Shown: positions 19,122 to 63,946 of the stretch, piece by piece | How positions within the stretch are numbered: position 1 is the first letter of the stretch | Layout of the letters: the number at the start of each line of letters is the position of its first letter | Assembly: GCF_000429645.1 (NCBI RefSeq) | Contig: NZ_AUCG01000001.1 | Coordinates: 62,001-126,000 of the forward strand | DNA: 64,000 bases | Direction: 5' to 3' | From: Niveispirillum irakense DSM 11586 | GTDB taxonomy: Bacteria > Pseudomonadota > Alphaproteobacteria > Azospirillales > Azospirillaceae | Made by a program: the position numbers and the translations under genes | Notes under the pieces: generated by a model | Seen by the model: only the letters and a program-made list of their open reading frames with translations | Databases searched by the model: none | What the model was told of the DNA's origin: nothing

Positions 19122-19145
19122 GATATTGCACCAATGTGCAATATC
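19122..19145. promoter_or_regulatory. TTGCAC-N4-GTGCAA operator with 10-bp perfect arms
   Basis: GATATTGCAC (19122-19131), spacer CAAT, GTGCAATATC (19136-19145). It lies 14 bp before the M20 peptidase ATG. It shares the core TTGCAC-N4-GTGCAA and the spacing with sites at 28051, 50078 and 63931 and a variant at 48185, and it has the longest arms of the set. Confidence 0.7.
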
Positions 19146-19159
19146 TGACGGGGCAGACC

Positions 19160-20584
19160 ATGCCATGCAGACCGTTCGTCGTCATTACGACCGCAGGATT
19201 TCTATTGCTGTCACCCTTCGCGGCGATGGCGGGTGAGGCGCCGCCGCCCTTGCGGCCTGACCAGTCGACGTTCATCGATATCTATCGTGAACTGGTTGAA
19301 ACCGACACCAGCCACGTCACGGGTGACTGCACCTTGGCCGCCAATCGCATGCTGACCAGGCTGCGTACGGCAGGCTTCGGCCCCGGGCAGGCTGATCTGT
19401 TCGTGCCAGACGGGCATCCCAAGGATGGTGGGCTGGTGGCCCGGCTGGAAGGAACGGATGTGACGGCACCCGCCATGCTGTTGGTCGATCATATCGACGT
19501 GGTGGCGGCCCGGCGGGAGGATTGGCCGCGCGATCCCTACAAGCTGGTGCAGGAGGATGGTTACTTCATCGGGCGCGGCGTCATCGATGACAAAGCCCTG
19601 TCGGCCATATGGGTGGACAGCCTGATCCGGCTGAAGGCAGAAGGCTTTCGCCCCCGCCGCGCCATCAAGATCGCGCTCACCTGCGGAGAGGAGAGTGGCG
19701 AGGCCGTCAATGGCGTGAAGTGGTTGCTGGAAAACCGGCGCGATGCGGTGGAAGCCGGCGTGGCCTTCAACGAGGGCGGCTATGGCATGACCGATGCGGA
19801 TGGCAAGCCGCAGGCGCTATATCTGGCCGTGGGGGAAAAACACTCCCAGACCTTCGTGATCGAGGCAGTCAATCCCGGCGGTCACAGTTCCCGCCCCCGT
19901 GCCGACAATGCCATATATGACCTGTCTCTGGCCCTGTTGCGCATCCGCGACCTGAATTTTCCCATACGGATGACGGATGCCAACCGCACCTATTTCGACC
20001 GGATGGGCCTTGTCGTTGGTGGCGAGTTGGGGACGAAGATGCGCCTGCTGGCCCAAGGCAAGGCCGATACTGCCACCATCGCCGCCGTGACGGCCCACCC
20101 GGTACACAACGCCACCCTGCGCACCACCTGCGTGGCCACCACATTGGACGGCGGACATGCTGAGAACGCCCTGCCGCAGCGGGCGCGCGCCCATATCCAA
20201 TGCCGCCTGTTTCCCGGCGACAGTGTGGCGGAAACGGAGAAGTTGCTGCGCGACGCCATCGGCGATACCAAGGTGGAATTGTCGCGCGTGGGTGAGGCTG
20301 GTGTGGTGGCCGTGCCGCCGCCGCTTGATCCTGCTATCGTGGAGCCGGCGGAAGCGGTGGCGCGGGAGCTGTTTCCGGGCCTGCCGCTGATCCCGACCCT
20401 GCTGACCGCCGGTACCGATGGGCGCTATCTCAGTGCTGCCGGCATTCCCACCTATGGCATTCCCGGCATCCTGCTGGATGCGGACGGCAATGGCGCTCAT
20501 GGCGTGAATGAGCGTATCCGGGTACGCAGCGTCATGGAGGGGCGCGACTATCTCTACGCCCTGATAAAGCGCTACGCCCGCTGA
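19160..20584 (+). CDS. Exported M20-family metallopeptidase
   Basis: 474 residues from the ATG at 19160; an earlier in-frame ATG at 19118 would place the operator inside the gene and destroy the signal peptide. The signal peptide runs MPCRPFVVITTAGFLLLSPFAAMA with probable cleavage before GEAPP. Zinc-site residues of M20 enzymes are visible: His111 and Asp113 (LVDHID), Asp143/Asp144 (GVIDDK), Glu177/Glu178 (CGEESG) and a C-terminal His (GNGAHGVNE). It probably acts in the periplasm on a dipeptide or N-acyl amide. The operator in front links it to the shared regulon, so an amide-bonded substrate or conjugate is an attractive inference. Confidence 0.88.
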   Translation: MPCRPFVVITTAGFLLLSPFAAMAGEAPPPLRPDQSTFIDIYRELVETDTSHVTGDCTLAANRMLTRLRTAGFGPGQADLFVPDGHPKDGGLVARLEGTDVTAPAMLLVDHIDVVAARREDWPRDPYKLVQEDGYFIGRGVIDDKALSAIWVDSLIRLKAEGFRPRRAIKIALTCGEESGEAVNGVKWLLENRRDAVEAGVAFNEGGYGMTDADGKPQALYLAVGEKHSQTFVIEAVNPGGHSSRPRADNAIYDLSLALLRIRDLNFPIRMTDANRTYFDRMGLVVGGELGTKMRLLAQGKADTATIAAVTAHPVHNATLRTTCVATTLDGGHAENALPQRARAHIQCRLFPGDSVAETEKLLRDAIGDTKVELSRVGEAGVVAVPPPLDPAIVEPAEAVARELFPGLPLIPTLLTAGTDGRYLSAAGIPTYGIPGILLDADGNGAHGVNERIRVRSVMEGRDYLYALIKRYAR

Positions 20585-21436: not shown

Positions 21437-21552
21437 GGGGATGGCCCCTCCCAGAGCGTTCATTTAATTCATTTGGATAATGCGCTTGACGAGAGATGGC
21501 GGCAATGAAATTGTATCCGGCAACGCAATTTTAAAAGCCAAAACGAGGAACC

Positions 21553-27139: not shown

Positions 27140-28027
27140 TCAAACCTTCCCCCCCTCGCCGGCCGCTGCCTTGTTGGCAGCCGACATGGCTTTAGCCCCC
27201 ATGCTCATCACCAGATTGCCGGTGACCAGTTGGTTATGGGCATGGGCCAGGTGATGCATGTGGAACAGCGCATCCATGGAGGTGCGCTTGCCCCTTATAT
27301 TCTCCACGAAATTCATCGACTGCTTGGCCAGGGCCATGCCGAAGGCCGGATGGGCCGCCAGTTCGGTGGCGATGGCGGCTGTCTGGCTTTCCAGTTCGGC
27401 ACGCGGTACCACGCGGTTGATCAGGCCCAGATCGTAGGCCCGCTGCGCCGGCATACGCAGGCCCAGCATGATGAATTCCCGCGCAATGCGGGGCGGCAGG
27501 TCGAACATGTGGGCCGAATATTCCACGCCCGGCACGCCCATGCGCACCACCGGATCCTGGAAATAGGCATCGTCCGACGCCACGATCATGTCGCAGATCA
27601 TGGCCAGCATCACGCCACCGGCGATACACGCTCCCTGGACCATGGCGATGGTCGGCTTCGGGACTTCCTGCCAGCGGCGGCACAGGCCCAGATAAGCGTC
27701 CTGTTCCAGCACATATTGCCCTTCCGCCCCCTCCCGCGTCAGGTGGTCGCCCCACAGATGCACCCGCTCACGCGGCAGATGCCGGTCCTTAGCCGGCGTG
27801 CCCAGATCATGCCCGGCGGAAAAATGCTTGCCCTGCCCACCCAGCACGATGGCGCGCACGCCGTCATCCTCCACGGCGCGGCGGAAACAATCGTCAAGCT
27901 GGTTCAACAGCCGGTAATTCTGCGCATTGCCGCATTCCGGCCGCACCAGCCAGATCCAGGCGACCGCGTCCTTGACCTCATACTTGACGAACATTTCCGT
28001 CGGGGTGCTTTCCGATTGGCTTTCCAT
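27140..28027 (-). CDS. Enoyl-CoA hydratase/isomerase family protein
   Basis: 295 residues from the ATG at 28027; the longer frame would include the operator. Crotonase signatures: HFSAGHDLG (first oxyanion loop, around residue 70) and VQGACIAGGVMLAMICDMIVASDDAYFQDP (second oxyanion loop). The segment after it reads VVRMGVPGVEY, so the first of the two usual catalytic glutamates is not evident; it may be an isomerase, hydrolase or other crotonase variant. First gene of an operon continuing into the Mcd-like dehydrogenase and probably IorAB. Confidence 0.88.
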   Translation of the reverse strand: MESQSESTPTEMFVKYEVKDAVAWIWLVRPECGNAQNYRLLNQLDDCFRRAVEDDGVRAIVLGGQGKHFSAGHDLGTPAKDRHLPRERVHLWGDHLTREGAEGQYVLEQDAYLGLCRRWQEVPKPTIAMVQGACIAGGVMLAMICDMIVASDDAYFQDPVVRMGVPGVEYSAHMFDLPPRIAREFIMLGLRMPAQRAYDLGLINRVVPRAELESQTAAIATELAAHPAFGMALAKQSMNFVENIRGKRTSMDALFHMHHLAHAHNQLVTGNLVMSMGAKAMSAANKAAAGEGGKV

Positions 28028-28050: not shown

Positions 28051-28066
28051 TTGCACTGTAGTGCAA
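28051..28066. promoter_or_regulatory. TTGCAC-N4-GTGCAA operator
   Basis: TTGCACTGTAGTGCAA, with 7-bp perfect arms around GT, placed 23 bp upstream of the enoyl-CoA hydratase ATG. On the minus strand a TTGACT box (28078-28073) and TGCAAT (28055-28050), 17 bp apart, form a possible promoter that the site overlaps. The variant at 48185 has the same distance to its gene. Confidence 0.7.
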
Positions 28067-37013: not shown

Positions 37014-38195
37014 TTATTGGTAATCGGGCAGGTTCAAGACCCGCTTCGCCGTGATGTTGTTCTGAATCTCGAAGCTGCCGCCATAGATCGAATAGGCCTT
37101 GCTGTGCAGCCAGGCTCGCGTGGCCTCCAACTCGTCGGGCTCGAACCCGCCGCCCTCCCAGCCCAGGCCACGGTTGCCCAGGATTTCCACGATCAGTTCG
37201 CCCCGTTCCTGCGACACGTCCGATCCCAGATTCTTCACCGCCGACAAGGCGGGGGAGGTGCCGGTGCCGGCCTTCGCCTCCCTGGCTGCGCGTTGGAAGG
37301 TTTGCGAGTAAGCGCGCGAGCGCATGGAATTCAAGATCAGGCGGCGGCGCAGGTCGGGATCGGCGATGCGGCCATCCGCATCCTCCCCGATATAGCGCTT
37401 GGCGAGTGGCGCCAGACTGGGCGCCTCCGCCCTGTTGCCAGCCAGACTGTCGCGCTCGAACTGCAACAGGCGCTTGGCGACGGCCCAGCCCTGGTTGACG
37501 CCGCCCACGATATTCTCCTTCGGCACCTGCACATCGGTCAGGAACACTTCGGCGAAATGGGTGGTGCCGGATATCAGGGTGATGGGCCGTGCCTCCACCC
37601 CGGGACTGGACATGTCGATCAAAAGGAAGCTGATGCCCGCCTGCTTGCGGCTGGTATCAGTACGAACCAGGCAGAAGCACCAATGGGCATGATTGGCACC
37701 CGAGGTCCAGATCTTCTGGCCATTGACCAGCCAATGATCCCCCTGGTCGATGCATTTGGTCTGGAGGGATGCCAGGTCGGACCCGGCGCCGGGTTCGGAG
37801 AAACCCTGGCACCAGCGTACCGTCCCCTTGGCGATGCCCGGCAGAAAGCGCAGCTTCTGTTCGTCATCGGCATATTCCAGCAGGGTCGGACCCAGCATCA
37901 TCATGCCGTAGCTGCGATTGGGGTTGAAGGCGCCGATGCGCGCCATTTCCTGGTTGATCACCGCCTCATGCGCACGGGTCAGACCGGCGCCACCATATTC
38001 CGGGGCCCAGGTCACGGCACCCCAGCCCTTGTCCGCGATTCGACGCAGCCAAAGCTGGAAATCCGCATCGGCGTCGGCCAGCGCGCCGTCATTGTGATAG
38101 GGCTGCGGGTTCTTATAGGCGAGTGAAGCCGGAAAGTTGGCCTTAAGCCATTCGGCGACTTCTGCTCTAAACCCCTGCTCCACATCGTCTGCCAT
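37014..38195 (-). CDS. Acyl-CoA dehydrogenase, first gene of the long minus-strand block
   Basis: 393 residues from the ATG at 38195; the 59 residues upstream in frame are low-complexity and unlikely coding. Motifs: GWGAVTWAPEYGGAGLTRAHEAVINQEMARIG, GFSEPGAGSDLASLQT, LVNGQKIWTSGANHAHWCFCLVRTD, and an IYGGSFEIQNNITAKRVLNLP C-terminus. This is the FadE17/FadE-like branch often paired with a divergent second subunit. The upstream region (38196-38588) is shared with the divergent TetR gene, which may regulate it. Confidence 0.92.
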   Translation of the reverse strand: MADDVEQGFRAEVAEWLKANFPASLAYKNPQPYHNDGALADADADFQLWLRRIADKGWGAVTWAPEYGGAGLTRAHEAVINQEMARIGAFNPNRSYGMMMLGPTLLEYADDEQKLRFLPGIAKGTVRWCQGFSEPGAGSDLASLQTKCIDQGDHWLVNGQKIWTSGANHAHWCFCLVRTDTSRKQAGISFLLIDMSSPGVEARPITLISGTTHFAEVFLTDVQVPKENIVGGVNQGWAVAKRLLQFERDSLAGNRAEAPSLAPLAKRYIGEDADGRIADPDLRRRLILNSMRSRAYSQTFQRAAREAKAGTGTSPALSAVKNLGSDVSQERGELIVEILGNRGLGWEGGGFEPDELEATRAWLHSKAYSIYGGSFEIQNNITAKRVLNLPDYQ

Positions 38196-38588
38196 ATCAG
38201 CCAACTGTCCCGTTACGCCCCGAGAGGGATGTGGTTCCGGCGATGCCGCGATCCGTGCCGCTGGCCCCGCCAACGGGGGCCGCGTCGCTGTCAAGCCACG
38301 GACCTTTATCGCTTCTGATGCCTTTGACCTTAATTCAGCCAGACGGTGTTTGCACGACAAAAATTGCATCACAGGTTATTATGTTGGGCGCGACGGGCAT
38401 ACGTGACGGCATGACAGGCCCCTTCGCGATGCAACGGTATGCCAGCAAGTCCGGGCTGCCCGCCGCAGAATGTCCTGCCTTCCAGCCTCATCCAAACTTT
38501 TACAGACGTGCAATGTTGTCATATAGATGAAGCCTTCCCTATGCTCGAGGGCAAGGCAGCGGCCAGTTTGGTTAAGGAGTAAGTGCCC
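38196..38588. other. Divergent control region between acyl-CoA dehydrogenase and TetR genes
   Basis: About 390 bp without a convincing gene. It holds a TTGCAC half-site at 38350-38355, followed by an AT-rich run, and a partial match to the TTGCAC-N4-GTGCAA operator at 38498-38513 whose right half ends GTGCAA. The TetR ribosome site AAGGAG is at 38574-38579. Confidence 0.5.
38498..38513. promoter_or_regulatory. Weak candidate for the TTGCAC-N4-GTGCAA operator
   Basis: TTTTACAGACGTGCAA matches the consensus well only in the right half (GTGCAA) and in TT..AC on the left, with the same 4-nt spacer. Its place about 75 bp before the TetR start would fit autoregulation. Confidence 0.3.
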
Positions 38589-39338: not shown

Positions 39339-39456
39339 AGGCAATCTCTTTAATTTTAACCTTCACTGCAATATTAGACATGGTATAGTCCGCTGGATCG
39401 ACGAGGCAGCGCGTGTTTGTCGCCGCCATCCGTCCCCCTCCATCCAGCGGAATGCC

Positions 39457-45308: not shown

Positions 45309-48161
45309 TCAGAACTTGGCGCGTACACCAACGGTGTAGGCACGACCGACAGTGTCATACAAGGAGATGATTGTCGGCAAGTTCAGACCGGGAATGGTGC
45401 CCGGAACCAGCGGCGGATCACGGTCGAACAGGTTGTTCGCTGTCAGGAACAGTTCGGTCTCCGCGCCGAAGGCCTGGGTCCGATAGGTGACGGTGGCATC
45501 GGTGTACCAGACGGCACTCTGCTTGGCGCCGTTGTAGTTCTGGTTCGGCTCCTGACTGCCCAGGGCCCATTTGCCGATATATTGTTCAGAGACGAAGATG
45601 TTGAAATCACCGATATCGTAGGAAACGTTCAGCGTGCCGCGCCATTTCGGCCGGGCGATCGGCTGGTTGGCGCTGCTGCCATAGCCTGCGAAATCATAGA
45701 CCGGAGCCGTAGCGGACTGCTGCGTCTTGTATTCGTCCAGATAGGAGGCGTAGAGGCGCAGGGTCAGGTCGCCGGGCCCTGCTTCCGTGCGGTAGGTGGC
45801 GTCGAAATCGATGCCGCTTGTGCGCAGGAAGGCGATATTGGCCGGCGCCAGACGGACACTGGTGGGGAACGCCGTGGCACTGGGCCGGGTGATCAGGGCG
45901 CATTCCGGCGCCGTGCCGCCGCTGGCCTGACAGTTGGTGACCATCTGGATCGGGGTCAGGCTGCCGATGGCACCGTCGATCTTCAGGCGGAAATAATCCA
46001 CCGACAGGCTGAAGCCCGGCAGGAAGGACGGGGTCAGCACGCCACCGATGGAGAAGGTGTCCGCTTCTTCCGGCTTCAGGCCGGTATTGCCGCCACTGAT
46101 CTGCGGCACATTGGCGGTGATGCCGCTGACCGGGTCGACAAGGGTACCAATGGCCGACTGGTCACCGGCGTAAAGGTCGAACAGGGTGGGGGCCCGGATA
46201 TCGCGCGACCGGGTGGTACGCAGCAGGAAATCATCCACCGGCCTCCAGGTGGCGCCCAGCTTCCAGGTCTCGACCCGGCCGCTGGTGCTGTAATCGGTGA
46301 TGCGGCCGGCGGCGTTGATGTCCAGGCTCTTGGCGAAAGCCATGTCACTCAGCACCGGCACATTCACCTCAAGGAAGCCTTCCTTGACATTCACGTCACC
46401 GGCGGCCTCACCGACATTGGTCAGCCAGTAAAACAGGGCCGAGGAGGGAACGCCCTGCACACCGTTGAAATAGGCCGCGCGTTCCGCCGCCGTGTCCAGC
46501 AGGGCCGGGTTGGCATTGCTGGTCAGCTTCAGCTTCTGTGTGCGGTATTCAGCACCGAACGCCACATCGACCGTACCAGCGGGCAGTTCAAACAGGGAAC
46601 CCTGCATGGCGGCGGAAACCATGTGCTGGGTGATCGCCGCATCGTAGGACGAGGTGCCCGTGGCATAGGCGTAGCCGTCCGGCGTCGACAGGGCGGCACC
46701 TTCGCCCATAATGTTCAACGGTTTACAGTCAGCGAAGCGCTGGCGGACGGCCGCGTCGGGGCTCAGCGTTGCACGGCACACGATGTTGCCCGAACCGTCG
46801 CGCACCGCGTCGATGGCGGCGTAGGCATTGCGCCAGTTGAACAGGCCGCTCTGATCCACGCCATGCTTGGACTTGCCATAGACATAACCGGCATTCCAGT
46901 GCCAGTCGGACCCAAAGTCACCTTCGAACCCGGCATTGGCCGTGTAATAATCTGTACGTTCCTTAGTATGCGGCTTGGGGGCATAGGAATTATAGGCCCC
47001 CACGCTGATGGAATTGGCGCCCGCCGCCGTCAACTGCGCACGCTGCGCATTGGTCAGATTCAGATAGGGATTGTCCAGATAGATGGTTGCCGATGTCGGC
47101 GGCACGAAGCTGTTGGCCAGCGACGAATAGGACAGGTCGCTGCGCGTGAAACCGCCCTGGGCATGGAACCGCACATCCGGGGTCACGTCGAAATCGAAAC
47201 GCTGGAATATCTGCTGCGTCTTCAGTGGCGCCACAGCGGTCACGTCATAGGGGATCGTATAGCCATCACCGCCGACGAAATAGGACGGCGTGCCCGTGGC
47301 GGTGCCGTTGTTGAAGGCGGTCAGGGTGCCGTCGGGCAGGAAACGTTGGTTCGCCAGCGGACCACTGAGAATCTTGCCGCCGTTGGCAGCGGTGTTCTGC
47401 GTAACGCCCTTGTAGATGACATAAGGATTGGCAGCCGAGCCGGGCGTGCCGGCGCCAGCATTCTTGCCAGCATAGATATAGCCCTGGGTGGCGATGTCAC
47501 GGTCATTACGCAGCATGCCCTTGTTGTCATACTGCTCGGCGCTCAACAGCCAATGGCCGCGCCCTTCGAAAAGGTCAGTGCCAAAGGCCGCACCCACACG
47601 GTAATTCTCGTTGTCCCCCTGCTCAGAAATGCCGTACTGCGCCTGGACCTTCGCGCCGTTGAACTTGCGGTTCAGCACGAAGTTGACCACACCGGCCACG
47701 GCGTCGGAACCATAGGCGGCAGACGCGCCGGCGGTCACCACATCCACACGCTCGATCAGCATGTTGGGGATGACATTGGTATCGACGTCGCCGCGAAAGG
47801 TGGTGGGCGGAACGCGGATACCGTCGAACAGGATAAGGGTGCGGTTACCACCGACGCCGCGCAGGTTCAGGATGTTGCCGTGCGAGGCGCTATTGGCGAA
47901 ATTGTGCGTGGACCGCGCCGGGCTGCTGGACAGTTGGAACTGCGGCAGCTTGTTCAGGGCGTCGGGAATGCTGGACGGCGTCGCCTTGGCCAGATCAGCC
48001 ACGGGGGCCACGGTGACCGGGGTCGGAGCTGTGTAGCCGTCCCGCGTGATGCGGGAACCGGTGACCACGATCTCTTCCAGCGTGTCCTGCGCCATGGCGG
48101 GGGCTGCGAGGAACACCGTGCTGGCGCTCATCAGCAGGGAGCCGACGATGCGTGCTTTCAT
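45309..48161 (-). CDS. TonB-dependent outer membrane receptor
   Basis: 950 residues from the ATG at 48161, with GGGAGG in front; the open frame upstream is not coding. Signal peptide MKARIVGSLLMSASTVFLAAPAMA, then the TonB box-like region DTLEEIVVTGSRI. The plug domain includes SIPDALNKLPQF and the segment TAGASAAYGSDAVAGVVNFVLNRK; the C-terminal beta-barrel ends in the membrane-insertion signature with terminal Phe (TVGVRAKF). It imports a substrate too large for porins. It lies among dehydrogenase and esterase genes and is preceded by two operator-like elements, so it probably brings in the substrate of the pathway. Confidence 0.95.
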   Translation of the reverse strand: MKARIVGSLLMSASTVFLAAPAMAQDTLEEIVVTGSRITRDGYTAPTPVTVAPVADLAKATPSSIPDALNKLPQFQLSSSPARSTHNFANSASHGNILNLRGVGGNRTLILFDGIRVPPTTFRGDVDTNVIPNMLIERVDVVTAGASAAYGSDAVAGVVNFVLNRKFNGAKVQAQYGISEQGDNENYRVGAAFGTDLFEGRGHWLLSAEQYDNKGMLRNDRDIATQGYIYAGKNAGAGTPGSAANPYVIYKGVTQNTAANGGKILSGPLANQRFLPDGTLTAFNNGTATGTPSYFVGGDGYTIPYDVTAVAPLKTQQIFQRFDFDVTPDVRFHAQGGFTRSDLSYSSLANSFVPPTSATIYLDNPYLNLTNAQRAQLTAAGANSISVGAYNSYAPKPHTKERTDYYTANAGFEGDFGSDWHWNAGYVYGKSKHGVDQSGLFNWRNAYAAIDAVRDGSGNIVCRATLSPDAAVRQRFADCKPLNIMGEGAALSTPDGYAYATGTSSYDAAITQHMVSAAMQGSLFELPAGTVDVAFGAEYRTQKLKLTSNANPALLDTAAERAAYFNGVQGVPSSALFYWLTNVGEAAGDVNVKEGFLEVNVPVLSDMAFAKSLDINAAGRITDYSTSGRVETWKLGATWRPVDDFLLRTTRSRDIRAPTLFDLYAGDQSAIGTLVDPVSGITANVPQISGGNTGLKPEEADTFSIGGVLTPSFLPGFSLSVDYFRLKIDGAIGSLTPIQMVTNCQASGGTAPECALITRPSATAFPTSVRLAPANIAFLRTSGIDFDATYRTEAGPGDLTLRLYASYLDEYKTQQSATAPVYDFAGYGSSANQPIARPKWRGTLNVSYDIGDFNIFVSEQYIGKWALGSQEPNQNYNGAKQSAVWYTDATVTYRTQAFGAETELFLTANNLFDRDPPLVPGTIPGLNLPTIISLYDTVGRAYTVGVRAKF

Positions 48162-48184: not shown

Positions 48185-48200
48185 TTACACGGTAGTGCAT
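48185..48200. promoter_or_regulatory. TTGCAC-N4-GTGCAA operator variant before the TonB receptor
   Basis: TTACACGGTAGTGCAT: the right half and spacer match the consensus, the left half has one change and the last base one. It ends 23 bp upstream of the receptor ATG, the same offset as the site before the enoyl-CoA hydratase. A TGTAAT -10-like box lies at 48189-48184 on the minus strand. Confidence 0.55.
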
Positions 48201-48224: not shown

Positions 48225-48248
48225 AAAATTGCCTGTCAATGCAATTTT
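48225..48248. promoter_or_regulatory. 24-bp palindromic element, copy 1
   Basis: AAAATTGC - CTGTCAAT - GCAATTTT: perfect 8-bp arms around an 8-nt spacer, 63 bp upstream of the TonB receptor start. An identical 24-bp copy, spacer included, is at 49985-50008. Identity of the spacer points to a functional protein site. Confidence 0.6.
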
Positions 48249-48367: not shown

Positions 48368-49930
48368 TCAGCGGGACAGGGTTTCCCCCGTCTCGGCACT
48401 CCATTTCGCGTACCAGGGTACAAGCTGGGTGGCCCGGAAGCCTGAGACCCCTGCCGTCTGGTCAGCGATGACGAGCGGTGATGCGCTTTCAAGGTTGAAA
48501 CGGGGCCAAACCGGCAGGCCTGTACCGTTGGGATCGCCCGTGCGGATGAAGTTCAGGAAATAGCCCTGCATCATGCGGGCGATCTCTGCGTCCTTCCCCT
48601 GCACTGGCCCGCCGTCCCTGTCGCCCTCCGGTGCGAAAATATAGGGCATGTCCCCGCAATGCGGGACGCCTGCCACCTTGCCGCGCTGCTCTTGCGCAAC
48701 ATAGTCGAAATGGTAGCCATAGGCAGGCTGGCCAGTGCGGGACGCCAGCCCCGCCATGCCCATGGCAGCAGAAGTGAAGATGAAATCCGTCTGCACCTGC
48801 CGTAGCATTTCCTTGTCGTCCAGGGTGCCATAGGCCGGTTTAAGCGCGTCCATCTTGATCGCGAACCTTTCCTCCAGCACCTTGGCGTCAAAGCCCATCA
48901 GGCCAAAGACGCTGGCTTCATTGCTGGTCGATCCGCTGATGATCGGCACCCGCGCCATCTCGCCCCGCGCGAAGGTCACGGAGAGTTGGCGGTTCAGCAG
49001 CTTGCCATCGATGATGGCGCCGAATTCGGGAGGGCCCTGGTCGCCAGCCAGCACCTGGTCTGGGGTCAAGGCGCGCAGCTTGGCCAGGGCGGCGGCATCG
49101 CTGCCTTCCACCCCGACGCGCCGGGCAAAGGCCAGGCCCTGCTGTTGCGCCACCTCCATGGTACGGGTTGCATTGAAGAAGCCACCACCCGAATGGATCG
49201 AGGCGCGATGGAACAAGCCGCGCGGCACCGGTGATGCGGTCAGGGCATTGACCGCCGATCCGCCGGCCGAGCAGCCAAGGATGGTGACATTGTCGGGATC
49301 ACCACCGAACTTGGCGATGTTACGCCTCACCCATTGCAAGGATGCGATCAGGTCCGACAGCCAGTAATTGCCGACTACGCCGTCCTTGGCGTCTGCCGCC
49401 AACGCCGGATGGGCGAAGAAACCCATGCGACCGATACGGTAATTGGGCGACACCAGCACCACGCCCTGATCCACCAGGGCCGGCAGGCCCTTATCCATCA
49501 GGTAGCGATTGGAGCCGACAAAATAGGCGCCGCCATGGATGGACACAAGCACTGGCAGCTTACTGCCCGCCGATAGGTCCGGGCTGGCGACGTTCAGCGT
49601 CAGGCAGTCCTCGCTCTGCGCCGGGGCGTCGGTGGCACCCGGCGGCACCGGCTGGGTGCAGATGGCACCAAATTTTGTGGCGTCACGCACCCCCTCCCAT
49701 GGGGCGGCGGGGGCGGCAGCCTGCCAGCGCAGCAGGCCGACAGGCGGTGCGGCAAAGGGAATGCCCTTGAATATGCCGCCCTTCCCGTGCGTCTCACCAC
49801 GCAGCTTACCCAGATCGGTATCGACAACCGGTGCGGTATCGGCACGGACGGCCGCGACCGACATTGGAAGGAAAAGTCCCAGCAGCGCCAGGGCGGAAAC
49901 ACCCTGTCGCAGGCGGCGTGGAAACTCCAT
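48368..49930 (-). CDS. Exported type B carboxylesterase/lipase
   Basis: 520 residues. The N-terminus MEFPRRLRQGVSALALLGLFLPMSVAAVRA is a signal peptide. Family signatures: GIPFAAPPVGLLRW, the EDCLTLNV motif with Cys, HGGAYFVGSN, and the nucleophile Ser221 in GCSAGG (usually GESAGG; Glu is replaced by Cys). The triad acid is in the STSNEASVFG region and His in GVPHCGDM. It hydrolyses an ester in the periplasm or outside. Divergent PQQ dehydrogenase gene; the alcohol released by this enzyme may be that enzyme's substrate. Confidence 0.92.
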   Translation of the reverse strand: MEFPRRLRQGVSALALLGLFLPMSVAAVRADTAPVVDTDLGKLRGETHGKGGIFKGIPFAAPPVGLLRWQAAAPAAPWEGVRDATKFGAICTQPVPPGATDAPAQSEDCLTLNVASPDLSAGSKLPVLVSIHGGAYFVGSNRYLMDKGLPALVDQGVVLVSPNYRIGRMGFFAHPALAADAKDGVVGNYWLSDLIASLQWVRRNIAKFGGDPDNVTILGCSAGGSAVNALTASPVPRGLFHRASIHSGGGFFNATRTMEVAQQQGLAFARRVGVEGSDAAALAKLRALTPDQVLAGDQGPPEFGAIIDGKLLNRQLSVTFARGEMARVPIISGSTSNEASVFGLMGFDAKVLEERFAIKMDALKPAYGTLDDKEMLRQVQTDFIFTSAAMGMAGLASRTGQPAYGYHFDYVAQEQRGKVAGVPHCGDMPYIFAPEGDRDGGPVQGKDAEIARMMQGYFLNFIRTGDPNGTGLPVWPRFNLESASPLVIADQTAGVSGFRATQLVPWYAKWSAETGETLSR

Positions 49931-49984: not shown

Positions 49985-50008
49985 AAAATTGCCTGTCAAT
50001 GCAATTTT
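49985..50008. promoter_or_regulatory. 24-bp palindromic element, copy 2
   Basis: Exact repeat of the element at 48225-48248, here 54 bp upstream of the carboxylesterase start and 119 bp before the divergent PQQ dehydrogenase. The arms AAAATTGC and GCAATTTT and the spacer are identical, so this is not chance AT-richness. Confidence 0.6.
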
Positions 50009-50060: not shown

Positions 50061-50089
50061 TTGACAGTCACCAAATGTTGCACGATAGT
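50061..50089 (+). promoter_or_regulatory. Predicted promoter of the second PQQ dehydrogenase
   Basis: TTGACA (50061-50066) and GATAGT (50084-50089), 17 bp apart, followed by the PQQ gene start at 50128. The -10 box lies inside the TTGCAC-N4-GTGCAA site, the usual geometry of a repressor that blocks RNA polymerase. Confidence 0.55.
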
Positions 50090-50093
50090 GCAG
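50078..50093. promoter_or_regulatory. TTGCAC-N4-GTGCAG operator before the PQQ dehydrogenase
   Basis: TTGCACGATAGTGCAG, one base from the consensus palindrome, 34 bp upstream of the start codon. It overlaps the -10 box of the predicted promoter. Confidence 0.65.
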
Positions 50094-50127: not shown

Positions 50128-52197
50128 ATGTCCGGCAAGAATTTCGGCAGGCTTTTCAATCGTCGGGCGCGATGGGCAATGGCCAGCGCCTGTGCGCTGA
50201 CCCTGGGGCTGGCCCCGATCCAGCCGGCCTTCTCTGCCGGCAAAGCCGATAATGGTGCCAACTGGTCCGCCTTCGGCCGCACCGACACCGAAGACCATTT
50301 CAGCCCGCTGACCCAGATCAACGACAAGAACATCGCCCGCCTGGGCTTGGCCTGGTCGCATGATCTGGAAACGTTCGATAGCTATACGGCACCGCTGGCC
50401 GTGGATGGGGTGATCTATTTCGCCGTCGGACATTCCATCCTGCACGCCATGGACGCCCGCAATGGCGAGGTGCTGTGGACCTATGATCCCGAGGTGGCCA
50501 AGCATGCCGGTGCCCGCATGCGCGCCGGCTGGGGCGTGCGCGGCATCGCCTATAAGGATGGTGTGGTCTATACCGGCACCCGCGATGGTCGCCTGCTGGC
50601 CGTCAACGCCAAGGATGGCACGCTGCTCTGGAGTGTGGAGACGCTGGACGAGGCGGAAGGCGGCTATATCACCGGTCCGCCCTGGATCGCCGGCGACAAT
50701 GTCGTCATCGGCTTCGGCGGCGCTGATTACAGCCCCGTGCGCGGCTATGTCACCGCCTATAATGTGAAGACCGGCAAGAAGGCCTGGCGGTTCCATATCG
50801 TGCCCGGTGACCCGGCCAAGGGGTTCGAGAACAAGGCCATGGAGATGGCCGCCAAGACCTGGACCGGGGAATGGTGGAAGTTTGGCGGCGGTGGCACCGT
50901 CTATCACGCCATGGCCTATGACAAGCAGTTCAACCGCATCTATCTGGGTACCGGCAATGGCTGGCCCTGGAACCAGAAAATCCGCAGCCCCGGCGGCGGC
51001 GACAATCTGTTCCTCTCCTCCATCGTGGCACTGGATGCCACAACGGGGGAGTATGTCTGGCACTATCAGACCGATCCCGGCAATACCTGGGACTTCAACA
51101 ATGCCATGGATATTCAGCTCACCGAGCTGACGATCGACGGGCAGAAGCGGCCCGTCCTGATCCATGCGCCCAAGAACGGCTTCTTCTATGTGCTGGACCG
51201 GCGCGACGGCAAGCTGCTGTCGGCGGAGAAATTCGCCAAGGCCAACTGGGCGGACAAGATCGACCTGGAGACGGGCCGCCCGGTGATCAATCCCGAAGCC
51301 CGCTTCCCCGATGGCAAACCCTTCGTCATGTATCCGCTGCCGCTCGGCGCGCATGGGGTACAGTCCATGTCCTACAGCCCGAAAACGGGCCTGACCTATA
51401 TCCCGGTGACGGAGGGGGGCCGCGTCTTCGTCGATCCGCCGAACCTGGCCAACTGGCAGTACAAGCCTGGCATGTTCGTGAATACGGGCCTGGGCGCACC
51501 GCCGCCCGACATCAAGGTGCCGCCGCCAACCAGCGCCCTGCTGGCCTGGGACGTGGCCAAGGCCAAGCCCGCCTGGCGGGTGGAACTGACCGGATTGCAG
51601 AATGGCGGCACCATCGCGACCGCCGGCAATCTGGTATTCCAGGGCGATAATCAGGGCAAGTTCAACGCCTATGCCGCCGATGACGGGCGCAAGCTCTGGT
51701 CCTTCGATGCCCAGAATGGCATCCTGGGCAATGCCATCACCTACAAAGCCGGCGGCAAGCAATATGTCACGATCCTCACCGGCTGGCGCAGCAGCTTTGC
51801 CGGCAAGCCCAACTGGGATTACGAACAGCAGCGCCGTCGTGTGCTGACCTTCGTCCTGGATGGCAAGGCCATACTGCCGCCAGCCGACCGCACCGACATC
51901 CCCGTGCTGGACGACGCGTCCTTCACCATCGATCCGGACAAGGCCAAGATCGGTGCCGGGGTCTATAATTCAAGCTGCGTCATCTGCCATGGCGCTGGCA
52001 TGGTGGCCGGCGGGGCCGCCCCCGACCTGCGCAAATCCAGCATGCCCATGGATGCCGACACGTTCCGCGCCGTGGTCCATGACGGCATCCTGATGGAACG
52101 TGGCATGCCCAATTTCGACATCCTGAGCGATGGAGAAATTGAAGGCCTGCGCCACTATATCCGCCAGCGGGCCCGCGAAACTGTGGTCGCCAAGTAA
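50128..52197 (+). CDS. PQQ-dependent quinohemoprotein alcohol dehydrogenase, second copy
   Basis: 689 residues from the ATG at 50128, 10 nt after AGGAGG (a TTG at 50122 is also possible). Signal sequence NRRARWAMASACALTLGLAPIQPAFSA. Same architecture as the enzyme at 41.0-43.1 kb: catalytic Asp in NTWDFNN, PQQ/Ca site GGGTVYHAMAYDKQFNRIYLGTGNGWPWN, C-terminal heme motif Cys617-V-I-Cys620-His621. The adjacent Cys pair above PQQ is also missing here (RAGWGVRGIAY). The two copies are clearly paralogues and may divide substrates or successive alcohol steps. Confidence 0.93.
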   Translation: MSGKNFGRLFNRRARWAMASACALTLGLAPIQPAFSAGKADNGANWSAFGRTDTEDHFSPLTQINDKNIARLGLAWSHDLETFDSYTAPLAVDGVIYFAVGHSILHAMDARNGEVLWTYDPEVAKHAGARMRAGWGVRGIAYKDGVVYTGTRDGRLLAVNAKDGTLLWSVETLDEAEGGYITGPPWIAGDNVVIGFGGADYSPVRGYVTAYNVKTGKKAWRFHIVPGDPAKGFENKAMEMAAKTWTGEWWKFGGGGTVYHAMAYDKQFNRIYLGTGNGWPWNQKIRSPGGGDNLFLSSIVALDATTGEYVWHYQTDPGNTWDFNNAMDIQLTELTIDGQKRPVLIHAPKNGFFYVLDRRDGKLLSAEKFAKANWADKIDLETGRPVINPEARFPDGKPFVMYPLPLGAHGVQSMSYSPKTGLTYIPVTEGGRVFVDPPNLANWQYKPGMFVNTGLGAPPPDIKVPPPTSALLAWDVAKAKPAWRVELTGLQNGGTIATAGNLVFQGDNQGKFNAYAADDGRKLWSFDAQNGILGNAITYKAGGKQYVTILTGWRSSFAGKPNWDYEQQRRRVLTFVLDGKAILPPADRTDIPVLDDASFTIDPDKAKIGAGVYNSSCVICHGAGMVAGGAAPDLRKSSMPMDADTFRAVVHDGILMERGMPNFDILSDGEIEGLRHYIRQRARETVVAK

Positions 52198-56740: not shown

Positions 56741-57961
56741 TCAGCCCTCCCAATCCAGCACGACATTCTCGATCCCGAACACATGCCCGCCATAGGTCAG
56801 CGGCGCGGTACCCGGCTTGATGCGGAAATGCGGGATGCGGGCCAGGAATTCCTCCAGCCCGATGATCAGTTCGCGCCGCGCCAGATGGGAGCCCAGGCAG
56901 CGATGCGGGCCATAGGCGAAAGCCGTGTGGCGATTATTGTCGCGGGCCAGATCAATGCGTTCCGGATCGGGAAACTCCGCCGGGTCGCGGTTGGCGATCA
57001 TGGTGGGACAGGAAACAAGGTCGCCCGCCTTGATCAGGATGCCGTCGAAATCATAATCCTTCACGGCCGTGCGCAGCATCTGCACCGTGGAATAGGCGCG
57101 GAAGAACTCCTCCACCGCCGGCTTGATCAGATCACGATCCTCGCGCAGGCGCTGCTGGTCTTGCCCATGCTTGGCCAGATGGCAGAGGTCGAAACCCAAG
57201 GCGGCCGCCACCGTGTCCAGCCCCGCCTCGAACAGCAGCACGGCGATGCCCAGGATTTCCTTGTCGGTCAGGGGCCGGTCCTTGATCCTGGCCTGTAACA
57301 GGAACCCGACGAAATCATCAGCCGGCTCCCGCTTGCGCTGCTCCAGCAGCCCGCGCATGAAATCCACGACGGTGCGCATGGCCGCCAGCCGCTTTTCCAG
57401 CGTGCCGTGGAACTGATCGTCAGCCCAGCCCAGGAACTCATCCCGGCGGTCATCCGACACGCCCAGGAACTGTAAAAACACGCCCACGGCAAAGGGGAAG
57501 GCGAAATCATTCATGACCTCGCAACTGCCTTTTTCCTTGAACCCCTCGATCAGGCGCACCGCGCGTTCGCGGGCACCGGCCTCCATCGCGTCCACCCGCT
57601 TGGGCGACAGAAGCGGGTTCAGCAAGGCGCGATAGGCCTGGTGGTCGGGCGGGTCCACCTCCAGCGGCACCATGGGCAAATCCTCGCCCAGCGCGGCCTT
57701 GAAGATGCCCCGGTAGCTGGAAAAGGTTTCCGGGTTTTGCAGAATACGTCGCTGGTCGTCGGCACGGGTGATGACCCAGGTGCCGCGCCCGTCATAGGTA
57801 TTGGCCGGCGCAAAGAAGACCGGCGGCCCGCTGTAATGCACAAAACTGAGTGCTGCCTGCGGATTGCCATTGGGCGTGGGTGCCATGCCCGGCGATCTGA
57901 AATAGCTGAAATCCCGTACCAGGCCCGGCGGCACATGGTCGGGGATGGCGTGCGGCTGCAT
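56741..57961 (-). CDS. Cytochrome P450
   Basis: 406 residues from the ATG at 57961, with GGAGGA in front; the extra frame upstream covers the palindrome. The heme-thiolate loop is FAYGPHRCLG with Cys355; the I-helix reads LLFEAGLDTVAAALGF and contains the oxygen-activating AGxDT pattern; the K-helix ExxR is in VEEFFRAYSTVQMLRTAVKD. It hydroxylates an unknown substrate using the two ferredoxins encoded just behind. The divergent TetR gene and the palindrome in between suggest substrate-induced expression. Confidence 0.93.
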   Translation of the reverse strand: MQPHAIPDHVPPGLVRDFSYFRSPGMAPTPNGNPQAALSFVHYSGPPVFFAPANTYDGRGTWVITRADDQRRILQNPETFSSYRGIFKAALGEDLPMVPLEVDPPDHQAYRALLNPLLSPKRVDAMEAGARERAVRLIEGFKEKGSCEVMNDFAFPFAVGVFLQFLGVSDDRRDEFLGWADDQFHGTLEKRLAAMRTVVDFMRGLLEQRKREPADDFVGFLLQARIKDRPLTDKEILGIAVLLFEAGLDTVAAALGFDLCHLAKHGQDQQRLREDRDLIKPAVEEFFRAYSTVQMLRTAVKDYDFDGILIKAGDLVSCPTMIANRDPAEFPDPERIDLARDNNRHTAFAYGPHRCLGSHLARRELIIGLEEFLARIPHFRIKPGTAPLTYGGHVFGIENVVLDWEG

Positions 57962-58024: not shown

Positions 58025-58052
58025 AAAACATTCGTTGTACAACGCATGTTTT
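58025..58052. promoter_or_regulatory. 28-bp near-perfect palindrome between P450 and TetR genes
   Basis: 14-bp arms AAAACATTCGTTGT / ACAACGCATGTTTT with one mismatched pair; the central 12 bases CGTTGTACAACG are perfect. It lies 63 bp upstream of the P450 ATG and 90 bp upstream of the TetR ATG, the expected place for a TetR operator controlling both genes. Confidence 0.75.
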
Positions 58053-58142: not shown

Positions 58143-58703
58143 ATGCCCGTCGCCGTTGACAGTGACCAGCGCCGCACGGATGTCGCCGGCGCCGCCGCCG
58201 ACCTGATCATCGAGGGCGGGTTGAACGCGGTCACCTTCCGCAACCTGGCGGCCCGGCTGGGCTGCAGCACCACCGTCATCAGCCATTATTTCCGCGACCG
58301 CAATGCGGTGCTGATGGCCACTTATCAATATAATTTCGACCAAGCCGTGGCCTTGCGTGAGCAGGCCCTGGCGGGACTGCCGGCCGATCCCGTGCAGGCG
58401 GTGGAGGAATTGCTGCCGGTGGGGCCGCAACAGCGACGGCACTGGATCGTCTGGCAGTGCTTCTGGACGGCGGCCCTGTTCGAGCCCGGCCTGCTGGCCG
58501 AGCATCGCCAGGGGCTGGCCGGCACGCGCGACCGGCTGCGTGATCATTTCACGGCATCGGGGGAGGCGCCCGCGGCAGCAACGCGGCGGGCGGAGGATAT
58601 CTGTACCGCGCTTTACGGCATCGCCATGCAGGCGGTGTTCGACCAGGATTACTGGAACGAGGCCCGCCAACGCGCTGCATTCCGGCGGGCGGCAGGGAGA
58701 TAG
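58143..58703 (+). CDS. TetR-family transcriptional regulator of the P450 operon
   Basis: 186 residues from the ATG at 58143, with GGGAAGGA ahead. HTH: VAGAAADLIIEGGLNAVTFRNLAARLGCSTTVISHYFRDRNAVLMATYQYNF, a BetI/TetR-type DNA-binding domain. The C-terminal part is helical with an ALFEPGLLAEHR segment. The divergent P450 gene and the palindrome between them make it the probable repressor of the P450-ferredoxin operon. Confidence 0.93.
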   Translation: MPVAVDSDQRRTDVAGAAADLIIEGGLNAVTFRNLAARLGCSTTVISHYFRDRNAVLMATYQYNFDQAVALREQALAGLPADPVQAVEELLPVGPQQRRHWIVWQCFWTAALFEPGLLAEHRQGLAGTRDRLRDHFTASGEAPAAATRRAEDICTALYGIAMQAVFDQDYWNEARQRAAFRRAAGR

Positions 58704-60370: not shown

Positions 60371-60402
60371 TGTCGGCACTCCTCCCATTCAGGCTTTCTG
60401 CT

Positions 60403-61407
60403 TCACCCGCGCGGTGCGCGGACCAGTCCGTCGGCCACCAGGCGCGGATGCACCTTCTCTCCGAACAGGCGCAGGCTCTTCCAGGACAGTTCCGGGTCCA
60501 GTCCGCCCAGCAGGGCATGGAATGTCACCTGGCTGTCGGGCCCCAGCCCCTTGATCAGGGCGTAGCATTCGTCGGGTGTAACGACCTTGATGTTGGGCAT
60601 GGCGCGCAGCGCGTCCAACGAGGTCGCCTCCGCATAGCGGGTCTCGCCCGTACCACGCTCCTTGGCCCATTCGGCATAGGTGTTGGTGGCATAGGCAATG
60701 TGCGGCGCCAGCAGCGGCCAGTCGCGGTCGGGATCGTCGCTGACATAAAGGAAGCTGGGACCCGGCTTCAGCAACTGTTCCGGCGGCGGGAATCCGGCCT
60801 TCTCGCGTTCGGCCTTGTAAATCTCGAACAGGTCGGGATGGCCGGGGAAATACTGGTACCCGGCCTTGGCGGCGCGGATGGCCGACTTGTCGGTGGACCC
60901 GCCCATATAGACCTTGGGCCCGCCCGGACGCACCGGCTTGGGTGTCACCCGCACCGTGCGGCCATCATACTCAAACGGCTCTCCCGTCCAGGCCTTGGCC
61001 AGCGTCTCCATCGTGTTGTTCATGATGGACAGCCGCTTGGTGATGTCGCGGCCGAACATCTCGAACTCGTGCGGGCGATAGCCCATGCCGGCCGTGAACA
61101 CGATGCGGCCGTTGGAGATATTGTCCAGCACGGCCAGATCTTCGGCCAGCCGCAGCGGATCGTGCAGCGTCACCACCAGGGCCGACAGATGAACGAGAAT
61201 GTCTTTCGTGGCACCGAAGACGGCACCCGCCAGCACCATGGAGGACGGGCAATAGCCATGTTCGGCGCCGTGATGCTCGGCCAGGAACACCTGATCGAAC
61301 CCCTGGCGGTCGGCCCAGGCCGCCTGCTCGATGGCGGCGCGGTAAAGGGCCGGGTGCGGCGCGCCGAACGGCGGGCTGTTCATGTCGTAACGGAGATTGA
61401 GTTCCAC
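60403..61407 (-). CDS. LLM-class flavin-dependent oxidoreductase
   Basis: 334 residues, a luciferase-like TIM barrel: GFDQVFLAEHHGAEHGYCPSSMVLAGAVFGATKDI, LHDPLRLAEDLAVLDNISNGRIVFTAGMGYRPHEFEMFG, and a GGPKVYMGGSTDKSAIRAAKAGYQYFPG region. These are FMN- or F420-dependent monooxygenases or reductases. The flavin reductase encoded at 40.3 kb could supply FMNH2. It lies 60 bp downstream of the CoA-transferase gene. Confidence 0.92.
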   Translation of the reverse strand: MELNLRYDMNSPPFGAPHPALYRAAIEQAAWADRQGFDQVFLAEHHGAEHGYCPSSMVLAGAVFGATKDILVHLSALVVTLHDPLRLAEDLAVLDNISNGRIVFTAGMGYRPHEFEMFGRDITKRLSIMNNTMETLAKAWTGEPFEYDGRTVRVTPKPVRPGGPKVYMGGSTDKSAIRAAKAGYQYFPGHPDLFEIYKAEREKAGFPPPEQLLKPGPSFLYVSDDPDRDWPLLAPHIAYATNTYAEWAKERGTGETRYAEATSLDALRAMPNIKVVTPDECYALIKGLGPDSQVTFHALLGGLDPELSWKSLRLFGEKVHPRLVADGLVRAPRG

Positions 61408-61467: not shown

Positions 61468-63861
61468 TTAAGCCCGCACGCGGGCAGTGGCCCGCTGGTT
61501 GCCGTCAGCGGTTACGGCGATGCCGCGACCGATCAGATCGTCGATCTCTTCCGCGCTGTATCCGGCTTCGGCCAGGATGGCGCGCGTATGTTCACCCAGG
61601 CGCGGGGCCGGGCCGCGCGCCAGACCGGGCGTGACACTCAGCCGGTTGAACAGGCCCAGCTCACGGATATGGCCATACATGGAATTATGATGCTCCAGCA
61701 CCCGGTTGCTGTTCAGCGCCCAGTCCTGCCACAGCATCTCCTGTACCCAGGAATTCAGCCGCGCCACCTCGCACGGCGCGCCCGCGGCGCCCAGCCTTGC
61801 CACTGCTTCATCCGTCGTCAGGCTGGCGAAGAACGGCGTCAGGATGGCCAGCAGCGCGGCATCGTTGCTGCTGCGGTCGCGCGGGGTGGTGAAGCGGGGA
61901 TCGCTCGCCAGTTCCGGTCGACCAATGGCCTGGACCAAGGCCGAGAAGCGCTGGTCATCGCGGCAGGAAATGCACAGCCAGCCCTCATCCTTGGTCCGAT
62001 ACAGCCGGTCCAGGGCGTTGAAACCCATCTGCCCCTGATCCAGGCGCATGCCATAGACGGGCCGGCGGTCGGCATCCAGGAAATGCTCCGACGTGGTCCA
62101 GAGGCTGGAATGCAATTGCGGGCATTCCATGTAATCACCCTTGCCCGTGCGGTGGCGATGTTCAACGGCCATCAACACGGCGGCAGCCCCCAGGAAGCCG
62201 TTATTGTAATCCTCATTGCCGAATACCGACCGGGTGGGCGGATTGCCCTCCCCCCCGCCTTCACACAGCAGGCCGGTCCAGCCGCTGACCAGGGGGGCGA
62301 AGCTTTTCAACAGCGATTTCGGGCCTTTGGAGCCATATCCCGGCAGATAGGCATAGATCAGCTTGGGATTGATCTTCGCCATGTCGGCATAGCCGATGCC
62401 CAGCTTGTCGGCCTTGCCGGGCCGCAGATTGTGCATCATCACGTCAGCCCCGGCGATCAGCTTGTGCGCCGCCGCCAGACCCTCCGCCGTTTTCAGGTTC
62501 AGCACGATATCGCGCTTGCCGCGCTGCGCCGCATCGAACACGTCGGGCAGCGGGCGCATCTGGTCGCCTTCCGGCGTCTCCACCTTGATGACATCAGCGC
62601 CTAAGTCCGACATCAGCCGCCCGGCAAAGCCACAGGCGAAGAAGGAGCTGAAATCCAGGATGCGCAGGCCCTCCAGGGCGTGGCGCAAGGGCTTGCCACC
62701 GCTTGCTGCCGGTTGCGCGGGCCGGGCCAGGAATGCCGCCAGCTTGTCATTATCCGCCCCCACCGCCGGGGCCGGCACCGGCATCACGCTGGCAATATTG
62801 GCAAAGCGCACGGCAGGGGCCGCCTGGTGAATGGTGCCGAAATCCGGGTCGGGCAATTCGATACGCTGGCCCACAAACTCCACCTGATCGTCCAGCAACA
62901 CTTCCGCCGGTTCCAGCACCGGCAGGGCCGCGACATCGGCAGCATGGAACAGGCGCAGCCATTCATCGCGCGGCTTCGCCTTGAACGCCTCGAAAATATC
63001 GACGCGGGCGGCCTGGTATTCGTCATCTTCCAGCGGTATGGCCATTTCCGGACCCTTGATCGCCTTGATCCGGTCGCCGAAGCCCAGAATGTCCATGGCC
63101 GCCTTGAAGGCACCGGCCCCGCCGGTATGCATCTGCAGGTACAGGCCGTCGCCGCACTGGAACATGGCGGTGACCAGACGCACCTTGCCGAACCGGTCGA
63201 TGGCGCCGCTGTCCCCCTTCTTGATGTAGGAGATACCATCCTCCTGCCACCAGTTATTCATGGGCGATTGGGCCAGCATCGCGTCCAGCAGCGAGGCCTC
63301 CACCTTCTGGCCCCTGCCTGTCACCCGTTGCGCACGCAGGGCCGACAGCGAACCGATAACGGCCAGGAAGGCCTGACCGTAATGCAGCGCCGGATGGCCC
63401 AGATAGACGGGACCGGACCGGAAGGAACTGCCCTTGTCCACCATGGTACCCAGCAATGCTGCCGCCAGCCCTTCGCCGTAGGGACGACCGGCGAAGGGCG
63501 TATCGTCGCCATAGGCGGTCAGGGCGCAGACGACAAGGCCCGGACAATCCTTCGCAAGGCTCTCCTGGTCCAGGCCCAGCGCCGCTGCCTCCGCCGTTTC
63601 CAGCGAATGGATGAACAGGTCGGCGCTGCGCAGCAGGCCCAGCAATTTGGCGCGGTCGCCCGCAACCCGAATGTCCAATTCCACGGAGCGCTTGCTGCGA
63701 TCCCAGGATTTGCGGGTTAAATCATGGGCGAAAAAGGCCCCGCCATGGGGCTCCACCTTCAGCACCTCGGCCCCGTGATCGGCCAGCAACATGCTGGCGA
63801 TGGCACCTGGCATCACCGTCGATGCGTCCACAACGAAAAGGCTCTCCAACGGGCCGGCCAT
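61468..63861 (-). CDS. Tandem (two-domain) CaiB/BaiF CoA-transferase-like protein
   Basis: 797 residues, about twice the length of a class III CoA-transferase. Domain 1 (about 1-385) begins with FVVDASTVMPGAIASMLLADHGAEVLKVEPHGGAF; domain 2 (about 393-797) begins with LRILDFSSFFACGFAGRLMSDLGADVIKVETPEGD. Both have the RSVEL/RDIVLNL segment. At the site of the catalytic Asp, domain 1 reads RPYGEGLAAALLG and domain 2 reads KSFAPLVSGWTG, so neither has a clear nucleophilic Asp. Family architecture is known from tandem class III members, but activity is uncertain. It leads an operon with the LLM, NTF2 and quinone reductase genes. Confidence 0.9.
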   Translation of the reverse strand: MAGPLESLFVVDASTVMPGAIASMLLADHGAEVLKVEPHGGAFFAHDLTRKSWDRSKRSVELDIRVAGDRAKLLGLLRSADLFIHSLETAEAAALGLDQESLAKDCPGLVVCALTAYGDDTPFAGRPYGEGLAAALLGTMVDKGSSFRSGPVYLGHPALHYGQAFLAVIGSLSALRAQRVTGRGQKVEASLLDAMLAQSPMNNWWQEDGISYIKKGDSGAIDRFGKVRLVTAMFQCGDGLYLQMHTGGAGAFKAAMDILGFGDRIKAIKGPEMAIPLEDDEYQAARVDIFEAFKAKPRDEWLRLFHAADVAALPVLEPAEVLLDDQVEFVGQRIELPDPDFGTIHQAAPAVRFANIASVMPVPAPAVGADNDKLAAFLARPAQPAASGGKPLRHALEGLRILDFSSFFACGFAGRLMSDLGADVIKVETPEGDQMRPLPDVFDAAQRGKRDIVLNLKTAEGLAAAHKLIAGADVMMHNLRPGKADKLGIGYADMAKINPKLIYAYLPGYGSKGPKSLLKSFAPLVSGWTGLLCEGGGEGNPPTRSVFGNEDYNNGFLGAAAVLMAVEHRHRTGKGDYMECPQLHSSLWTTSEHFLDADRRPVYGMRLDQGQMGFNALDRLYRTKDEGWLCISCRDDQRFSALVQAIGRPELASDPRFTTPRDRSSNDAALLAILTPFFASLTTDEAVARLGAAGAPCEVARLNSWVQEMLWQDWALNSNRVLEHHNSMYGHIRELGLFNRLSVTPGLARGPAPRLGEHTRAILAEAGYSAEEIDDLIGRGIAVTADGNQRATARVRA

Positions 63862-63930
63862 GTCGCTTTCTCCCCAAGAATTTCAAAGGGAAACCCGTTG
63901 ATCCGGTTTCCATCGTTCTTTGCCTAACTT

Positions 63931-63946
63931 TTGCACAGTAGTGCAA
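63931..63946. promoter_or_regulatory. TTGCAC-N4-GTGCAA operator before the tandem CoA-transferase
   Basis: TTGCACAGTAGTGCAA, perfect six-base arms with spacer AGTA, 69 bp upstream of the ATG at 63861. The centre and right half are identical to the site at 28051. Confidence 0.68.

Follow-up and report, generated by a model that had tools for sequence, protein, structure and literature searches.

A predicted palindromic operator before catabolic genes of Niveispirillum irakense, its probable TetR-family regulator, and related sites beside F420-biosynthesis genes

We analyzed a stretch of 64,000 nucleotides from Niveispirillum irakense DSM 11586 (the window; bases 62001-126000 of the 160,686-bp contig NZ_AUCG01000001.1), in which the inverted repeat TTGCAC-N4-GTGCAA recurs before catabolic genes. 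The repeat is a local feature of this genome region. It is very probably the operator of a TetR-family protein encoded within the window, TetR1, which would govern a regulon of catabolic genes; binding, repression, inducer and substrate we infer from sequence. The entire contig was scanned for the motif, and gene annotation covered the main genes of the window and part of the 20 kb beyond it. The sites and genes that carry the argument are these (CoA, coenzyme A):

19122-19145, predicted operator with 10-bp perfect arms before the M20 peptidase gene; score 27.6, reached by 0 of 15 Markov sequences; overlaps a -10-like GATATT
27140-28027, minus strand, ECH1, enoyl-CoA hydratase
28051-28066, predicted operator before ECH1; score 34.1, top rank; between a -35-like TTGACT and a -10-like TGCAAT
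38589-39338, plus strand, TetR1, TetR-family regulator (Pfam TetR_N)
45309-48161, minus strand, TonB-dependent receptor
48185-48200, predicted operator before the TonB-dependent receptor; score 28.0
50078-50093, predicted operator before PQQ2; score 26.5; covers the -10 box
50128-52197, plus strand, PQQ2, quinohemoprotein alcohol dehydrogenase (best solved-structure match, a type II quinohemoprotein alcohol dehydrogenase)
61468-63861, minus strand, CoAT3, fused family III CoA-transferase
63931-63946, predicted operator before CoAT3; score 29.0

The motif was found where the original prediction had placed it. A pattern search of the window returned perfect cores at 19126-19141, 28051-28066 and 63931-63946, one mismatch at 50078 and two mismatches at 48185. 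The sites at 58052 and 38498, described earlier as weaker matches, are present with two mismatches and are weak when taken alone. Including the two-mismatch matches at 16034 and 43775, which are intragenic, the window holds 9 matches with at most two mismatches, compared with 3.2 (standard deviation 1.9) in shuffled sequence; none of 100 shuffles reached 9 (maximum 8). The 16-bp pseudo-palindrome carries A/T-rich shoulders that extend it to about 24 bp. Across the 5.45-Mb genome, eight sites have at most one mismatch (reversed-pattern control, 0), and four of these, among them all three perfect ones, fall in the 64-kb window. The proposed comparison of intergenic and coding DNA separates the two groups of four: those outside the cluster lie deep within stop-to-stop frames of 251-772 codons, and those of the window lie at the extreme edge of their frames or in short frames.

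A matrix built from the five sites scored them at 30-35 on the contig, with the next-best position at 18.5 (the matrix being trained on those five) and a mean maximum of 12.7 over 20 first-order Markov sequences. With a matrix derived from three other genomes only, the same sites scored 26.5-34.1, beyond the reach of all 15 second-order Markov sequences. The arrangement found is that of a local regulon: one operator is shared by several transcription units of a single cluster and is rare elsewhere. Placement just upstream of catabolic genes, as claimed originally, holds in general; the M20 site would be intragenic if translation began at the earlier in-frame ATG at 19118. The ATG at 19160 is the likelier start, judging by eye from the signal-peptide-like stretch that follows it. 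The spacing of 23 bp between site and ATG is correct for both the hydratase (28027) and the receptor (48161).

Close orthologues of TetR1 (69-83% identity) occur in only three other genomes among those searched (82 genomes of the family, 385 of the class, 299 of the order of Terricaulis, and one scan of a named-genome collection). They are a Niveispirillum metagenome-assembled genome (MAG; G073, 83%), a Terricaulis MAG (G082, 71%) and a further genome of the order of Terricaulis (G590, 69%), giving 2/82 family genomes and 2/299 Terricaulis-order genomes. The class set contains an orthologue in this genome alone, with relatives of 30-33% identity in six others. All of the orthologues found sit in operator-carrying genomes. 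An exact search for TTGCACNNTAGTGCAA in the 82 family genomes matched this genome only (1/82); exact patterns miss relatives, because the sites of G073 have mismatches.

For the cross-genome test, a matrix from three genomes was used to scan the fourth, with 15 second-order Markov sequences as the control. Since the 18 training sites (5 here, 5 in G073, 4 in Terricaulis, 4 in G590) were picked with the five-site matrix, these rounds depend in part on the sites of the original prediction; the ECH1 site already came first in each relative with the five-site matrix trained on this genome alone. In the test itself it ranked first in 4/4 genomes (34.1 here, 33.3 in G073, 36.1 in Terricaulis, 37.0 in G590). 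Scores reached by none of the Markov sequences were obtained at nine positions here, eight in G073 (on two contigs), seven in Terricaulis and nine in G590. Sites, some of them weak, precede the orthologues of ECH1 (4/4), ACAD4 (4/4; 17.0-19.4), APH (4/4), CoAT3 (3/4; 29.0 here, 31.1 in G073, 28.4 in Terricaulis) and P450 (3/3; 17.9 in G073, 24.4 in G590). The expectation that sites would be kept upstream of orthologues is borne out in the three related clusters, and the operator is conserved together with the regulator, though not at every orthologue. Genes matched in all four clusters, in rearranged order, are ECH1, CoAT1, thiolase 2, ACAD2, ACAD3, ACAD4 and an LTB4DH-like reductase, and also TetR1, ECH2, a flavin reductase and CoAT3. 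The Terricaulis orthologue of thiolase 2 (G082:C5, about 444374-445571) appears as two overlapping open reading frames, which suggests a frameshift or an assembly error.

The choice of TetR1 as the one regulator, proposed originally, is supported by this comparison: four regulators were identified on the contig by their families (TetR1, TetR2, TetR3 and an MLTR/XRE protein), and only TetR1 has a match in all four clusters. Its N-terminal helix-turn-helix belongs to Pfam PF00440, TetR_N (46.4 bits vs a cut-off of 24), and the predicted fold is nearly all helix, at a mean pLDDT (predicted local distance difference test) of only 55.4. The 18-residue recognition helix is identical in G073, with two changes in Terricaulis and three in G590. 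Among eight relatives of 30-33% identity, two from different genomes (L074 and L075) have an identical near-perfect palindrome, AATATTGTACCATGATACAATATT (AATATTGTAC-CATG-ATACAATATT; 2166-2192), about 35 bp before the TetR gene, with the length and shoulders of the TetR1 sites; the remaining six have other or poor sites. The best site lay upstream of the regulator in 8/8 of these relatives and in 12/26 unrelated TetR genes (one-sided P = 0.007). Because of the latter figure, the upstream placement was dropped as support, and only L074 and L075 are taken as such. The motif was not found at a 25% relative from the named-genome scan (L050), and plasmid relatives in N. resinovorum (43% and 34%) have no convincing operator near the regulator.

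The range of sites first proposed proved too narrow, as it lacked an asymmetric class, a second site present in two copies and the sites next to F420 genes beyond the window. The additional sites of the window and the genes they adjoin are:

37014-38195, minus strand, ACAD4, acyl-CoA dehydrogenase
38364-38379, asymmetric predicted operator TTGCAT-N4-GGTTAT upstream of ACAD4; counterpart at the ACAD4 orthologue in 3/3 other genomes
38498-38513, weak site in the TetR1 promoter; score 12.7, E about 0.5, not significant alone
39356-39371, site between TetR1 and ECH2; score 20.8, counterpart in G073 at 19.8
39457-40278, plus strand, ECH2
48225-48248, second site AAAATTGC-N8-GCAATTTT in the receptor promoter; score 25.9; covers the -35 box TTGACA
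48368-49930, minus strand, carboxylesterase
49985-50008, 24-bp repeat of the second site, identical to it, in the gap from carboxylesterase to PQQ2; score 25.9

The asymmetric pattern TTGCA[CT]-N4-GG[TA]TA, drawn up after some of its sites were known, occurs 10 times in 442 kb from the four clusters, and 10/10 occurrences lie at promoters by gene-start estimates. ACAD4 and APH each account for four, one per genome, and FbiC or TetR3-FbiC lies across from APH in three of these; the other two are at P450 in G073 and CoAT1 in Terricaulis. A longer pattern, TTGCAYNNNNGGTTANATT, has two matches with at most one mismatch in this genome, one of them exact and in the APH promoter; the reversed control has one. 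We take these TTGCAY-N4-GGWTA sites as putative TetR1 sites with one degenerate half. Alternatively, another regulator, as yet unseen, would act at them, and the TetR1 regulon would comprise the symmetric sites only. This we consider unlikely, if worth keeping in view: the right half at APH, GGTTAGATT, is identical in all four clusters, which would be unnecessary in a degenerate half, whereas the asymmetric sites share the left half, the spacing and the A/T shoulders with the symmetric ones, occur at promoters in all four clusters, and at ACAD4 also reach 17-19 with the symmetric matrix. The second site class consists of AAAATTGCCTGTCAATGCAATTTT, present twice and identically, at 48225 and 49985, with 1.7 kb separating the two promoter regions; its frame has no match in the examined stretches of the three other clusters. 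The matrix scan found no counterpart of the 39356-39371 site in Terricaulis or G590. In the TetR1 promoter, the Terricaulis site is stronger (21.1) than the one here and that of G073 is weak (10.0); autoregulation through the 38498 site is possible.

Twelve site-promoter pairs on the contig were examined. Sites lie over a -10-like box at M20, ECH1, PQQ2, CoAT3 and TetR3-FbiC, and over a -35-like box at the second receptor site, ECH2 and TetR1 (one of two equal candidates); the TTGACA-N17-GATAGT promoter claimed at 50078 is confirmed. At the main receptor site the overlap is with a lesser -10-like candidate only, and at the esterase with a poor one only. Overlap with promoter-like boxes was absent at ACAD4 and P450. 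Repression is the likeliest mode because the sites overlap -10- or -35-like boxes, by analogy with KstR and EdcR. A TetR1 dimer would sit over or beside the promoter, at the -10-like box of M20, ECH1, PQQ2 and CoAT3 and over the -35 box at the second receptor site, and so would keep RNA polymerase from genes that serve uptake, alcohol oxidation in the periplasm, CoA transfer and beta-oxidation. As the genes serve these four steps, a pathway metabolite, plausibly an acyl-CoA, may release it. A role for TetR1 as an activator, or as a mixed regulator and not a repressor alone, seems improbable. In favor of such a role, the 49985-50008 copy stands far upstream from the promoter of PQQ2, and the ACAD4 site showed no promoter-like pair across it; against it, the M20, ECH1, PQQ2 and CoAT3 sites overlap the -10-like box, the position reported for KstR and EdcR.

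Other features of the neighborhood bear on which protein reads the sites:

12741-13562, MLTR/XRE protein
56741-57961, minus strand, cytochrome P450
58052-58067, weak predicted operator in the P450/TetR2 gap; score 16.0, E 0.13
58143-58703, plus strand, TetR2

The sites could belong to TetR2, to TetR3 (just past the window), to the MLTR/XRE protein or to an outside regulator, with TetR1 merely linked. TetR2 and TetR3 share the neighborhood and both genes are conserved in G073. Yet no match (E 1e-20) to TetR2, TetR3 or the MLTR protein turned up in the stretches of Terricaulis and G590, which bear strong sites, and TetR2 likely has a palindrome of its own, so that we regard this explanation as quite improbable. 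The P450/TetR2 gap contains a separate 26-bp near-palindrome, AAACATTCGTTGTACAACGCATGTTT (58026-58051), whose core GTTGTACAAC occurs twice in the matching gap of G073; it is probably the operator of TetR2. Chance palindromes in promoter DNA, which is A/T-richer and raises scores, are an extremely unlikely source: the perfect sites number three in 5.45 Mb, all of them here, ECH1 holds rank 1 in four genomes, and the cross-genome scan speaks against chance for the strong sites, 38498 alone excepted.

Several observations weigh against TetR1 as the regulator of these sites, or against parts of its regulon. Two relatives encode further regulators: G073 an XRE-cupin protein, and Terricaulis an IclR protein, where a site (26.7) stands at the start of the IclR gene, which also favors another regulator. 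No such operator was found in 40 kb of plasmid pHR1a, which carries the 43% relative. Among 26 unrelated TetR genes (28 loci, two without a match), the best position lay at most 300 bp upstream in the 12 mentioned above, with scores up to 16.0; because of this, we trust the score alone only above about 20. The matrix scan found no site at CoAT3 of G590 and none at the PQQ genes of either G073 or G590, the PQQ2 operator being present only in this genome. At the Terricaulis receptor the site falls short of significance (9.0, E 1.7), and the sites here at TetR1 itself (E about 0.5) and at APH (11.6, E 0.87, symmetric matrix) are weak. The promoter boxes are weak as well (8-10 of 12) and were scored without a control. 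The comparison rests on four clusters, two of the genomes being MAGs and G073 being listed at 5% contamination. Finally, the Markov controls do not model A/T-rich promoters, which favor the matrix, and for this reason sites scoring 11-19 rest on conservation and not on score.

A set of F420-biosynthesis genes adjoins the catabolic cluster:

contig 133060-138335, 7.1-12.3 kb past the window, CofGH (FbiC), F420 reductase (FNO), CofE, CofD and CofC, with all five above their NCBIfam cut-offs

Here and in G073, a run of TetR3-FbiC-FNO-CofE-CofD-CofC lies downstream of a conserved asymmetric site, which overlaps the TetR3 start codon in both; G590 has no TetR3 match. The FbiC promoter block is conserved among this genome, G073 and G590. 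With a matrix made without G590, an asymmetric site in the FbiC promoter of G590 scores 23.1 and a symmetric site at its CofE 32.1, CofE being followed by CofD and a CofC. FbiC is present in 3/82 family genomes and TetR1 in two, and both TetR1 genomes have FbiC (P = 0.0009 by counting; both belong to one genus). The order of Terricaulis has FbiC in 6/299 genomes; of its two genomes with TetR1, G590 has FbiC and the Terricaulis MAG lacks it. No site (best 4.2) was found at six other FbiC loci (five of the Terricaulis order, one of the family), five of which were seen to about 1.5 kb on each side. TetR1 may also control F420 synthesis, the cofactor being produced as needed for a single inducible degradation pathway; on these promoter sites and gene distributions, we hold this to be possible, with the balance slightly against it. 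Against it stand the weakness here of the FbiC-promoter site with the symmetric matrix (11.6, E 0.87) and the divergent genes, which could be the real targets (APH opposite FbiC, CoA-transferase opposite CofE). In addition, an F420-using enzyme was not pinned down among the cluster proteins. A luciferase-like oxidoreductase (60403-61383, minus strand, after CoAT3 on the same strand) was considered and rejected as the user: its F420-type family scores are below the cut-off, its nearest solved structures include bacterial luciferase, and G073 has FbiC and no orthologue of this gene. The substrate of the cluster was likewise not identifiable from the protein families found by searches of its proteins.

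TetR-type catabolic regulons are already known, and it is the TetR1 regulon that is new, with the possible F420 link as the surprising part; in the open-licence papers searched by listings, we found no description of the operator, the cluster or the F420 link. KstR of mycobacteria is described in PMC1995591 as a TetR-type repressor of a lipid and cholesterol catabolic regulon, with short palindromes before many catabolic genes that partly overlap the -10 box, and in this it resembles TetR1. KstR is also the top NCBIfam match of TetR1 (residues 14-107), although the 37.2 bits fall short of the KstR-model cut-off of 280, and its motif, TnnAACnnGTTnnA, differs from TTGCAC-N4-GTGCAA. Sites nearer the KstR type, by our reading, stand before some of the 30% relatives of TetR1. 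EdcR of Caenibius tardaugens, according to PMC8700777, is likewise an alphaproteobacterial TetR-type repressor of a local catabolic cluster, that for estradiol, whose palindromes overlap -10 boxes and whose own-gene site is less conserved; its operator is TnnCnnTACnAnTnGTAnnGnnA, and the comparison made here concerns its sites and reported role.

The analysis defines an operator, points to a likely regulator and delimits a set of genes for a CoA-dependent degradation pathway, so far uncharacterized, in two alphaproteobacterial lineages. F420-synthesis genes and the NADPH-dependent F420 reductase are patchy among Proteobacteria, and why these bacteria make F420 was an unanswered question in a 2021 review (PMC8498797). 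If the link were true, the cluster would offer an inducible system in which to learn for what purpose Proteobacteria use F420; what sets it apart from other alphaproteobacterial F420 gene sets is that the promoters here carry a site common to a catabolic cluster.

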